Source: a virus. From it: DNA of 28,068 nt. Where the stretch lies: positions 1 to 28,068 of IMG/VR virus record IMGVR_UViG_3300017952_002890. One strand, 5' to 3'. The position numbers and the translations under genes were made by a program. The notes under the pieces were generated by a model. That model made no database searches and had not been told where the DNA came from. It saw only the letters and a list, made by a program, of their open reading frames with translations. Below, in pieces: positions 3,415 through 21,884 of this stretch. Position 1 is the stretch's first letter, and every line of letters starts with the position of its first letter.

Positions 3415-3819
3415 ATGAGCGACCTCGCTGACCTCTTGAAAGCAGACCTCGTAGCCCTTTGTGAAGAAAAAGGGCTGGACACAGAAGGAACGAAAGCCGA
3501 CCTGATTGCACGTTTGGAGGCGGCTGAAGCACCAGCACCCGTTGAAGAATCCACCCCAGAGCCTGCGGCTGAAGAACCCGCCCCAGAGCCAGCACCCAAA
3601 CCCAAAGCAAAGACAACGGCCAAAGGTTCTCCCGATCCAGAGGACGAGAGCCTCAGCACCGTTGATTTCATCACACAGGCCTACCTCTCAATCCTCAAGC
3701 GAGAGCCTGACCAATCTGGCCTGCGTCACTACAAAAACGCCCTTGACCTTCACCAAACCATCGACCGCCAGCGTGTGCTTGACGATCTGCTGGCGAGCGA
3801 GGAATACAGAAACCAATAA
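3415..3819 (+). CDS. SAP-like domain + DUF4214-like domain protein
   Basis: A 134-aa leaderless gene with three visible parts. Residues 3-34 (LADLLKADLVALCEEKGLD, then TKADLIARL) match the helix-extension-helix pattern of SAP/HeH domains, which usually bind DNA. Residues about 36-77 are a low-complexity Pro/Glu/Ala/Lys linker. Residues about 80-132 (VDFITQAYLSILKREPDQSG, then Leu and Tyr spacing ending LLASEEY) match the DUF4214 pattern, often found on cell-surface or glycosylation-linked proteins. The downstream neighbour of a glycosyltransferase therefore fits a sugar- or surface-related role. The fusion of a SAP-like head with DUF4214 is unusual. Domain names are from pattern recognition. 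Confidence 0.75.
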   Translation: MSDLADLLKADLVALCEEKGLDTEGTKADLIARLEAAEAPAPVEESTPEPAAEEPAPEPAPKPKAKTTAKGSPDPEDESLSTVDFITQAYLSILKREPDQSGLRHYKNALDLHQTIDRQRVLDDLLASEEYRNQ

Positions 3820-3847
3820 AACCCCCCAACCCAAACGATGTGGCTGG

Positions 3848-3996
3848 TGGAGAGCATCTCTCCAAACGGACGGTGGGGGTCTCCACCCTGGCTTCGGGCT
3901 TTGCCAGCATTCTTCCCCCACCGTCCACCTTTATGTGGGTGGGATGGCAACGTCATCTCGCCCCGTAGGACTCTTCGGGGAAGGTCGCCTACGGGG
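3848..3996 (+). ncRNA. Cluster of three hairpins in a non-coding gap (candidate structured RNA)
   Basis: The gene-free stretch 3820-4104 contains three consecutive inverted repeats. Hairpin 1: TGGAGAG (3848-3854) and CTCTCCA (3858-3864), three-base loop. Hairpin 2: GGACGGTGGGGG (3868-3879) and CCCCCACCGTCC (3915-3926), perfect over 12 bases, with an inner CTGGC/GCCAG stem (3888-3892, 3903-3907). Hairpin 3: CCCCGTAGG (3961-3969) and CCTACGGGG (3988-3996), perfect over 9 bases, with inner CTTC/GAAG (3973-3976, 3980-3983). It does not fold as a tRNA by eye. It could be a structured RNA, a read-through leader/terminator region or a protein-binding DNA site; strand is assigned by convention. Confidence 0.5.
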
Positions 3997-4056
3997 TGGG
4001 GTTCATTTCCGCCCCCCTTCTCGGCTCACGGCCTTCCCCACCTTTTCACCTCTAAC

Positions 4057-4081
4057 CATTGAGATTTTGAAAACATTGATA
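4057..4081 (+). promoter_or_regulatory. Two-element promoter (ATTGAGAT + CATTGATA)
   Basis: ATTGAGAT at 4058-4065 and CATTGATA at 4074-4081, followed by a G-run. The proximal box starts 31 bases before ATG 4105, which lacks a ribosome binding site. Confidence 0.8.
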
Positions 4082-4104
4082 AAGGGGAATGCCTACCCCC
4101 AACT

Positions 4105-4251
4105 ATGCCCCGCCGCATCCCCCAACCCCACTGCCCCGACTGCGAATGCCCACAGGTGCGTATCGATGACGTATGGATTGCCTGCCCTGAGATGTGCGGG
4201 TGGTCTGAAGTCTGGGCTGACACACCCGATGGCATGCCTGTGCGAGACTGA
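4105..4251 (+). CDS. 48-aa zinc-ribbon protein
   Basis: A short gene: MPRRIPQPHCPDCECPQVRI, then ACPEMCGW and a C-terminal VRD, stop TGA at 4249-4251. Cysteines at C10, C13, C15 and later C27 and C31 make a compact zinc-ribbon arrangement (CPDC and CPEMCGW). The start is supported by the promoter box 31 bases upstream and by the absence of any other start. Small zinc ribbons like this often act as transcription or translation modulators or stabilise other proteins; the role here is not known. A 58-aa membrane protein follows after 12 bases. Confidence 0.7.
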   Translation: MPRRIPQPHCPDCECPQVRIDDVWIACPEMCGWSEVWADTPDGMPVRD

Positions 4252-4263
4252 TTGGTGGTTTGA

Positions 4264-4440
4264 ATGAAGCAGACTCCCCTCGCCCGCCGCTTTGCCCGCT
4301 CATGGCCGACCCTGTTGGTTTGGGCCGCATCTTTGTTCTCCAGCACCGTCCGCCTACAGGCCGACATTGAGGGCAAATGGATAGGCGGCTGGATTCATTT
4401 CTTTGTCATGGGCGTTCCCGCTCTGGCTGGCCTTCTTTGA
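4264..4440 (+). CDS. 58-aa membrane protein (holin-like candidate)
   Basis: A 58-aa protein, MKQTPLARRFARSWPTLLVW at the N-terminus. It has a basic N-terminal tail, a first hydrophobic stretch at about residues 16-28 and a second at about 41-58 (GGWIHFFVMGVPALAGLL), separated by a charged RLQADIEGK loop, so both ends may lie on the same side of the membrane. Size and topology are compatible with a small holin, but no endolysin neighbour is visible and archaeal virus lysis proteins are poorly defined. It sits directly before the tail tube promoter. Function is inference; the reading frame is well supported by its composition and by close spacing to its neighbours. Confidence 0.6.
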   Translation: MKQTPLARRFARSWPTLLVWAASLFSSTVRLQADIEGKWIGGWIHFFVMGVPALAGLL

Positions 4441-19864: not shown

Positions 19865-21667
19865 ATGGATGATGCCCTTGAGCGTTTTCAACGCCTTGTG
19901 CGTAGTCCTGTGGGCGACGAATTGGTGATAACCCCACCCCAACCCCTGCTGGATGAAATCGAGCGGCTGGGGAGCGACCCACGCCGCCCCAGAACCGCCA
20001 TCGCTCGCTGGGCTTCATCCGTCTGGGTGGACTCCGTTCAAGCCGCTGGGGGTGCTCCAACGATTGAGGCTGGACACGCCGAGAAGGAAACCATCCAACG
20101 CCCCACCCATTATCCAGCCCACTGGGGTTTGGACTTGATACCCTACCCCTCCGACTTAGGCGGCACGATCACAAACGACCGCCTGTATACGGGATGCTAC
20201 ACGAGCCTGTCCACGCCGCGCCCGTTTGACCCACACCTTCACGGAACGCTCCCCAACGCCGCCCTCGGCTTTGGTTATCACCTCCTCTCGGAGTCGGGCT
20301 TCCCCGACCAATACGACATCACCGCTCGACGTGGGGGTGGCCCACGTGGGGGCTTTGCTTTCACCACGGGACCAACCGAGGGGGCTTATCCGTCCGCCGT
20401 GTTGCCCCAGCCCACGTTCAACCTGGGCGAGTTGGGCTTCAGCAACGGTGGCTGGAATCCAGAGGGTCTGCAATACACCAACCGACCAAAGAGGCTGATG
20501 CTGGGCGGACTCCGCAACGGATGGGCGCACAAGGTTATGTTTGCACGTTCCCGCCGTGTGGGATATCGCAACATTTACGGTCCCGTCGCCGTCGATGAAG
20601 CCACACCTCGTGCCTCTTTGGTTGTCATCAACGGACTGCACCCGCTTCATGGCATCAAGAACATACGGGCTAACGTGCGGATGAACGCTCCATCAGTGTT
20701 TGATATTGAGGTCAATAACGTCGCTGGCAGACGTTCTGGAGCGATCAGGGAGGGCGATGTTGTTCAGGTGTTTGCCTCAGCCCGTCTTTGGGCTAATCCC
20801 CCGCTGGTGTTCACGGGGTTTGTTTCATCAATCCGAGAAGGGTCGGACACTTTGACGTTCACCGCAACGGACACGCTGGGCTATTTGTCCAGGGAGGTCT
20901 TGACAACCTCCCCAGCGTATTATCAAAGCGACGCCGCTTCAATCATCAAGGACATCGCCGCCAACTCAACCTACAACCCACCCATCGGCAACATGACAAA
21001 CACGACCAACTTTGTCGTCCCGCAGGGGCTTGACCTATCCAACCGCTCAAGGTTGGCGGCGATCCAAACGATTCTGTCGTTGGTGAACGCCACCCCAACG
21101 TTTGCGAGGATTTACGCCGACCGCCACGGTGTGTTGCATCTGCGGTTGCTCAAGGAAATCGACGACGCTGACAACCACCCGCTGAACGGTGGAGCACTGC
21201 CCAGAACGGGAACGCCTCAAGACTTCTACCCCTCTTCGGTTTCACGGGAGGACGGAGACGTTCAAGGTTTCAACGTGGTGCAAATCATCAACGAGGAGGC
21301 TGGCATCAGCGTCAGCGTCCCAGACACCACCGACTCCCGCTATCCTTCCCGCCCCGTAGTGCGGATCGTGCGGGACAAGTCCATCACCCAAACCCAGCAG
21401 GCTCGGTTGTTGGGCGAGCAATACCTCCAGTCGCAGGGTGCTCAAAAGTCAAGGTGGACGGTCGTCGGCAGACCCGAAAGGCTGGACATTGAGCCTGGCG
21501 ACATCATTGAGTTTGCGACTTCATCCTCCGCCCTCTCTGGACGGTTTAGGGTCTTTGACGTGCGGTGGAATCTGTCACCTTCATTGGTTGAAATGACGCT
21601 GGTCGTCGGTCGTCCTTCACAAGACTTGCTCTCGTCGATTAGGCTCGCCAGCGATGTCAGCCTTTGA
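19865..21667 (+). CDS. Baseplate hub protein (gpD/gp27-like)
   Basis: A 600-aa protein if started at ATG 19865 (MDDALERFQRLVRSPVGDEL), or 615 aa from TTG 19820, which overlaps the previous stop. The N-terminal ~250 residues are Pro/Gly/Arg-rich and unusual for hubs. From about residue 255 the order follows late-control-D-type hubs: VINGLHPLHGIKNIRANVRM, EGDVVQVFASARLWANPPLV, FTGFVSSIREGSDTLTFTAT followed by DTLGYLS, then a helical SIIKDIAANSTYNPPIG part and a C-terminal RPERLDIEPGDIIEFATSSS and FRVFDVRWNLSPSLVEMTLV barrel. These hubs form the trimer that joins tube and tip. No peptidase or lysozyme insertion is visible. The last gene of the tail region. Confidence 0.78.
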   Translation: MDDALERFQRLVRSPVGDELVITPPQPLLDEIERLGSDPRRPRTAIARWASSVWVDSVQAAGGAPTIEAGHAEKETIQRPTHYPAHWGLDLIPYPSDLGGTITNDRLYTGCYTSLSTPRPFDPHLHGTLPNAALGFGYHLLSESGFPDQYDITARRGGGPRGGFAFTTGPTEGAYPSAVLPQPTFNLGELGFSNGGWNPEGLQYTNRPKRLMLGGLRNGWAHKVMFARSRRVGYRNIYGPVAVDEATPRASLVVINGLHPLHGIKNIRANVRMNAPSVFDIEVNNVAGRRSGAIREGDVVQVFASARLWANPPLVFTGFVSSIREGSDTLTFTATDTLGYLSREVLTTSPAYYQSDAASIIKDIAANSTYNPPIGNMTNTTNFVVPQGLDLSNRSRLAAIQTILSLVNATPTFARIYADRHGVLHLRLLKEIDDADNHPLNGGALPRTGTPQDFYPSSVSREDGDVQGFNVVQIINEEAGISVSVPDTTDSRYPSRPVVRIVRDKSITQTQQARLLGEQYLQSQGAQKSRWTVVGRPERLDIEPGDIIEFATSSSALSGRFRVFDVRWNLSPSLVEMTLVVGRPSQDLLSSIRLASDVSL

Positions 21668-21710: not shown

Positions 21711-21735
21711 TTGGGTGTGGCTACGCCACACCCAG
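21711..21735 (+). other. Perfect stem-loop in the 21668-21884 gap
   Basis: GGGTGTGGC (21713-21721) and GCCACACCC (21725-21733) flank a TAC loop; one more T-A pair and a T-G wobble extend the stem. It has no T-tract directly after it, so it is not a simple bacterial terminator. The rest of the 217-base gap is AT-richer than the genes, with a short CA repeat (21768-21777) and the T-rich stretch at 21826-21841. Confidence 0.6.
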
Positions 21736-21841: not shown

Positions 21842-21861
21842 GATATAGCAAACCATTGATA
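21839..21861 (+). promoter_or_regulatory. Two-element promoter, variant distal half
   Basis: TTTGATATAGC replaces ATTGAGAT, and CATTGATA at 21854-21861 starts 31 bases before ATG 21885. An AAGGAG after the box is too far from the ATG to act as a ribosome binding site. Confidence 0.8.
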
Positions 21862-21884
21862 AAGGAGAACCTGCTGGTCGGGGT

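Follow-up and report, generated by a model that had tools for sequence, protein, structure and literature searches.

Small pseudoknotted RNAs are known from several systems. The preQ1-II riboswitch, a 5′-UTR aptamer, is an H-type pseudoknot with an embedded hairpin, and the ToxI antitoxins of type III toxin-antitoxin systems are small pseudoknotted RNAs, sometimes in tandem, that occur as short near-identical repeats with the ToxN nuclease. HDV-like self-cleaving ribozymes are pseudoknots whose 5′ end is that of the first helix, with a P3 hairpin between the 5′ strand of P2 and the 3′ strand of P1. In alphaproteobacteria, the alpha-r14 sRNAs, such as NfeR1 of Sinorhizobium, pair with mRNAs at the ribosome-binding site and thereby silence them (PMC10746234); their stems are variable, the anti-Shine-Dalgarno (anti-SD) motif CCUCCUCCC is kept in unpaired regions, and the units are repeated (PMC10746234).

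We analyzed a stretch of virus DNA of 28,068 nucleotides, called the window here (positions 1-28,068 of IMG/VR virus record IMGVR_UViG_3300017952_002890), and in particular its gap at 3820-4103. Judging from sequence comparison, we give a probability of about 0.78 that this gap holds two tandem members, PK1 and PK2, of an undescribed pseudoknot ncRNA family of archaeal tailed viruses. The a-b-a′-hairpin-b′ topology is that of preQ1-II, but a promoter stands between most of the virus elements and the next gene, and they have no Rfam match. Like ToxI they are small, pseudoknotted and sometimes tandem, whereas ToxI repeats are near-identical and PK1 and PK2 differ almost entirely in sequence. As in HDV-like ribozymes the 5′ end of the knot coincides with the first helix, but a P3-like hairpin is absent, b and a′ being 0-6 nt apart in all members, and again no Rfam family matches. 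With alpha-r14 they share small size, diverged stems and repeated units and, in 6 of 9 distinct loops but not in the window's own copies, an anti-SD motif in a predicted unpaired region (CCUCCUCCC there, ACCUCC here), although alpha-r14 RNAs are bacterial and made of three plain hairpins, whereas here an archaeal-type virus carries one knot per unit.

Stems and pseudoknots in the gap

The initial annotation had described three consecutive perfect hairpins at 3848-3996, denser than chance and in a non-coding gap. The stems themselves are present: a 7-bp stem TGGAGAG-CAT-CTCTCCA at 3848-3864, a 12-bp stem GGACGGTGGGGG/CCCCCACCGTCC at 3868-3926 with an inner 5-bp stem (CTGGC/GCCAG), and a 9-bp stem CCCCGTAGG/CCTACGGGG at 3961-3996. 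Apart from an implausible overlapping frame at 3506-4267, the gap is indeed non-coding. Shuffling and folding agree on the density, as a perfect stem of at least 12 bp arose in 0.1%, and two stems of at least 9 bp in 0.4%, of 1000 dinucleotide shuffles of gap 3820-4103, and RNA folding of 3848-3996 gave z = -4.5 on either strand, equaled by none of 200 dinucleotide shuffles. What did not stand was the reading as hairpins, which gave way to two tandem pseudoknots, and the extent, since the structured region, although genuine, continues to 4039.

PK1 (3846-3926) and PK2 (3961-4039) are H-type pseudoknots of one design, with b abutting a′. The 12-bp stem is helix b of PK1, and the left internal loop of this hairpin, TCTCCACC (3880-3887), is the perfect complement of GGTGGAGA (3846-3853). 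PK2, which has the 9-bp stem as its helix a, was found in the same gap by a descriptor for the a-b-a′-hairpin-b′ arrangement; scanning with this descriptor gave two pseudoknots in the window gap, one in the corresponding gap of the relative L007, and none in 2000 shuffles of either. Helix a of PK1 and the 7-bp hairpin (arms 3848-3854 and 3858-3864) draw on shared bases and are mutually exclusive, so that the hairpin could compete with the helix. PK1 and PK2 might be one transcript. The features are as follows.

3415-3819, + strand: SAP + DUF4214 gene (Pfam PF02037 and PF13946, above cut-off)
3816-3821, + strand: TATA-like box ATAAAA, overlapping the SAP gene stop codon, about 30 nt before PK1; also in L007
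3846-3853, + strand: PK1 helix a, 5′ strand GGTGGAGA, overlapping the 5′ arm of the 7-bp hairpin
3854-3867, + strand: PK1 loop 1 GCATCTCTCCAAAC, the place of the conserved ACCUCC motif, degenerate here
3868-3879, + strand: PK1 helix b, 5′ strand GGACGGTGGGGG
3880-3887, + strand: PK1 helix a, 3′ strand TCTCCACC, abutting b directly
3888-3907, + strand: PK1 embedded hairpin c, CTGGC-UUCGGGCUUU-GCCAG (L007 counterpart GCGGU-CGGGCAU-ACCGC)
3915-3926, + strand: PK1 helix b, 3′ strand CCCCCACCGTCC
3927-3932, + strand: PK1 3′ tail ACCTTT; in most members ACC stands immediately or a few bases past b′
3930-3935, + strand: weak TATA-like TTTATG, about 28 nt before PK2 helix a
3961-3969, + strand: PK2 helix a, 5′ strand CCCCGTAGG, the 5′ arm of the 9-bp stem
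3977-3987, + strand: PK2 helix b, 5′ strand GGGGAAGGTCG, with one U.G pair, on the transcript strand only
3988-3996, + strand: PK2 helix a, 3′ strand CCTACGGGG, abutting b directly
3998-4015, + strand: PK2 embedded hairpin GGGG/CCCC
4029-4039, + strand: PK2 helix b, 3′ strand CGGCCTTCCCC
4040-4047, + strand: PK2 3′ tail ACCTTTTC
4079-4084, + strand: ATAAAG box of the next, probably leaderless, small gene (start 4105)

Related elements and covariation

Virus contigs that share the SAP+DUF4214 gene and the tail-tube gene with the window were taken as its relatives. Across both pseudoknots L002-L004 do not differ from the window and so add no information there. In L007 (65% protein identity) the gap is shorter and holds a single pseudoknot, a homolog of PK1 directly preceded by the stop codon of the SAP gene. 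By synteny and descriptor search, this pseudoknot was recovered from six further virus lineages, adjacent or close to the SAP+DUF4214 gene. It lies on the opposite strand beside that gene in L154 (with an element identical in type in L018, L061 and L196, the L154 group), L006, L172, L081, L188 and L176, and about 500 nt from it in L205; L154, L006 and L176 were reached via SAP-gene synteny and their structure was read afterwards. No recognizable element was seen at the SAP gene of L191-L195, L207, L065, L069, L073 and L078, a pattern scan for L172-like elements gave no new contigs, and one scan of genome contigs returned SAP/DUF4214 proteins from bacteria only.

The initial annotation had proposed a viral structured RNA and a search for compensatory changes in homologous gaps. 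Such changes back the proposal: by hand count, 11 pairs differ on both sides between PK1 and L007 (3 in a/a′, 5 in b/b′, 3 in c/c′), 3 pairs are broken, all at helix edges, and the loop CGGGC is kept. Further support comes from a promoter-like box at the proper distance and from G.U pairing, which occurs on the transcribed strand. Because it is mainly structure that is conserved, whole elements could not be aligned with MAFFT, and pairs were counted on hand-cut cores rather than with a covariance model. In nine cores, with loops cut out and L007, gapped by the aligner, omitted, both partners change in 15 of 16 core pairs, and covariation was 1.18 compared with 0.29 after shuffling (0/500) and at most 0.23 with slid partners.

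In a cross-pairing control that takes in L174 and L171, strands paired fully with their own partners (a/a′, 100% compared with 41% crossed; b/b′, 100% compared with 63%) and none of 100,000 permutations did as well, the 100% figure being inflated by descriptor-found members, which were picked by pairing and are perfect by construction. For this reason, the synteny-picked loci and the close pair L172/L081 are cleaner evidence. These two elements are 96% identical and, by hand reading, every stem difference keeps pairing on the transcribed strand, with one compensatory G-C to A-U change, one G-C to U.G and one G-C to G.U. Two helices in a-b-a′-b′ order, both covarying, place the elements in the H-type pseudoknot class.

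Other structured elements were seen in these viruses. L174:8517-8577 (- strand) and L171:2065-2165 form a homologous compact pseudoknot pair at another genomic position, beside a different gene, with ACCTT after b′ and no evident TATA box; their membership in the family is uncertain. Elsewhere, other structures fill the same slot by the SAP gene. A different conserved element lies close downstream of the SAP+DUF4214 gene at L031:3418-3490, L032:3744-3821 and L033:3596-3664, with a variable complementary outer stem around CCGCGGTCCGmATCCCC and TTTCAACGGAGTTAT; a pattern search of IMG/VR found it in these three contigs only, and it has no Rfam match. A second such family near the SAP gene (L142:5757-5814 with flanks, L139:730-761 and L143:6903-6933) has an 11-19-bp terminal stem with compensatory changes, a core ACyCGGACGsGCC...GGACATGGATGrC and a TATA box about 25 nt ahead of the stem. 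Homologous-looking knotted elements at L163:12865-12968, just upstream of a gene related to the helicase of the window (22751), and L160:10415-10512 have GAAAGyCCTGTyG and GATAGGCAAC in common and are a candidate RNA family. HNH endonuclease-like genes with a MPYKDP/MPIKDP-like start follow the divergent element in L154, L006, L176, L188 and L205; relatives that lack the element have similar genes after the SAP gene.

Promoters, database searches and host

A TATA-like box stands 24-32 nt before helix a in all ten SAP-linked elements, a spacing that matches the boxes of leaderless genes in these viruses, and no clear one was seen in L174/L171. In these viruses ATAA/TTAA/TATA peaks at about -26 to -30 ahead of start codons, which is a signature of leaderless archaeal genes; a box lies in the -36 to -18 zone of 147 of 543 ORFs (55 in shuffled controls), and a Shine-Dalgarno core precedes 56 of 543 (18 in controls). 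No sigma-70 promoters were found. The two-element promoter previously noted downstream of the stems is present as CATTGA/ATAAAG at about 4055-4084. Most members have ACC-YUU after b′, a tail that in the majority of loci read is followed by a box belonging to the next gene. The elements' own boxes, the tail and the box of the next gene speak for short RNAs transcribed independently rather than for a UTR of either neighbor, and each pseudoknot unit looks like a stand-alone ncRNA. Comparison among the relatives supports the predicted pseudoknot, its transcribed strand and its stand-alone architecture.

One or two CATTGA elements precede a TATA-like box at about 4055-4084, 21850-21870, 1228-1258 and 590-610 of the window and in many relatives (e.g., L020 and L022), possibly as a viral or host activator site. 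At L020:3562-3610, a 15-bp perfect inverted repeat, AGTATATCAATGTTT/AAACATTGATATACT, consists of two opposed CATTGA elements around a promoter region. In the window, a perfect 10-bp hairpin, TGGGTGTGGC-TAC-GCCACACCCA (21712-21734), lies in the gap between a gene that ends at 21667 and another CATTGATAAAGG promoter.

The Rfam search that the initial annotation had also suggested came out negative, with no match for the window in Rfam 15 at the gathering cut-off and best sub-threshold values of E = 1.9-7.5 for this gap, 2.6-4.5 for the L154 member and 3.4 for the L172 member. A weak MIR6288 match in L032 was dismissed, as it lies over an AT-rich promoter palindrome. The ARAGORN model gave no tRNA or tmRNA, no DNA similarity to named phages was found, the SAP and tail-tube proteins had no match in named phages, and the open-access literature searched contained no paper on non-coding RNAs of these viruses. 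By these comparisons the elements appear to be a new family of pseudoknotted viral small RNAs. Relatives of roughly 80 kb encode a family-B DNA polymerase (PolB), and magroviruses, which infect Poseidoniales, also encode PolB (PMC12999244). Archaeal-type promoters of leaderless geometry, PolB in relatives and the lack of a close named phage together fit magrovirus-type viruses, so the host is probably Poseidoniales, a group of marine archaea.

The loop 1 motif and competing explanations

We propose that each family RNA, about 75-120 nt long, is probably transcribed from its own TATA promoter, with a start at or near helix a. It would fold as an H-type pseudoknot with a helix a of 7-10 bp and a helix b of 9-14 bp; because b abuts or nearly abuts a′, both helices could stack, the third loop would usually hold hairpin c, and the RNA would end in the short ACC-YUU tail. 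ACCUCC is the anti-SD core of 16S rRNA, and this motif (ACCTCC in DNA) is present in 6 of 9 distinct loop 1 sequences, with 0.13 expected and 0/200,000 shuffles as rich, usually 0-4 nt past helix a. In the window itself the case for anti-SD action is at its weakest, as PK1 carries only a degenerate form (CUCUCC) and PK2 lacks the motif. Loop 1 may expose ACCUCC as a seed for pairing to Shine-Dalgarno sequences. The RNA would then act in trans on translation initiation and, since many viral genes appear leaderless, would probably target host mRNAs. Given the conserved motif and the likeness to alpha-r14, a trans-acting anti-SD RNA aimed at ribosome-binding sites is the function we tentatively favor. 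A bolder version, in which a viral mimic of the 16S rRNA 3′ end masks host Shine-Dalgarno sites and lets leaderless viral mRNAs win ribosomes, is unlikely. The motif could instead be structural, for example, in a groove triplex with the purine-rich b strand. Of the arrangements tried, a triplex with GGAGG of helix b fits L154 and L006 only, an additional helix joining loop 1 to the bases that follow a′ is strong in L205 only, and intramolecular pairing of ACCUCC with helix b is inconsistent.

The main rival to an anti-SD function is a partnership with the SAP-DUF4214 protein, in which the RNA would form a ribonucleoprotein, for instance as a virion or packaging RNA, and ACCUCC would be a protein-binding site or tertiary contact. 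SAP domains, of which the window gene has a Pfam match, bind nucleic acids, the element adjoins or sits near this gene in both orientations, and other structured elements take its slot in other lineages; on the other side, ten relatives named above have the SAP gene and no recognizable element, and the L174/L171 pair is beside a different gene. We rate this partnership as less likely than not. A role in the SAP-DUF4214 mRNA, as its 3′ UTR, terminator or stability structure, would suit the position directly after the stop codon in the window and L007, the U in the tail and the perfect hairpin past another gene end (21712-21734). A terminator should follow its gene on the same strand, though, whereas the element is upstream of and divergent from the SAP gene in six loci (L154, L006, L172, L081, L188 and L176) and has its own TATA-like boxes, which makes this role improbable and leaves the earlier suggestion of termination or attenuation of the upstream gene unsupported as the main function.

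We give still less credence to a riboswitch-like 5′-UTR regulator of the downstream gene: pseudoknots are common among riboswitches and an HNH-like ORF lies just downstream in five loci, but the genes that come next vary (small zinc-ribbon-like, tail tube, HNH-like). At most loci read, such a gene is preceded by a TATA box of its own, about 25-28 nt ahead of its start codon, which places the pseudoknot outside its mRNA. The long perfect stems fold on either strand, as they would if inverted repeats formed cruciforms at an origin or at the packaging or recombination site once suggested for these stems; such a DNA-level element is very unlikely, since a/b/a′/b′ is knotted, unlike simple inverted repeats, G.U pairs of one strand are tolerated and retained, and each SAP-linked element is behind its own promoter-like box. 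The G/C-rich, purine/pyrimidine-biased composition of the gap does favor G-rich/C-rich stems, and a relaxed descriptor yields chance matches elsewhere, but against the 0/2000 shuffles, the covariation, the conserved motif and the synteny, hairpins arising by chance are hardly credible.

In conclusion, a covarying pseudoknot family with a promoter, a recurrent gene neighbor and a conserved anti-SD-like seed lends itself to direct testing. Were the seed to act as proposed, leaderless viral initiation would be linked to a strategy of translation take-over, and a mimic of the 16S rRNA 3′ end, if true, would be a host shut-off device that acts at the level of initiation type.
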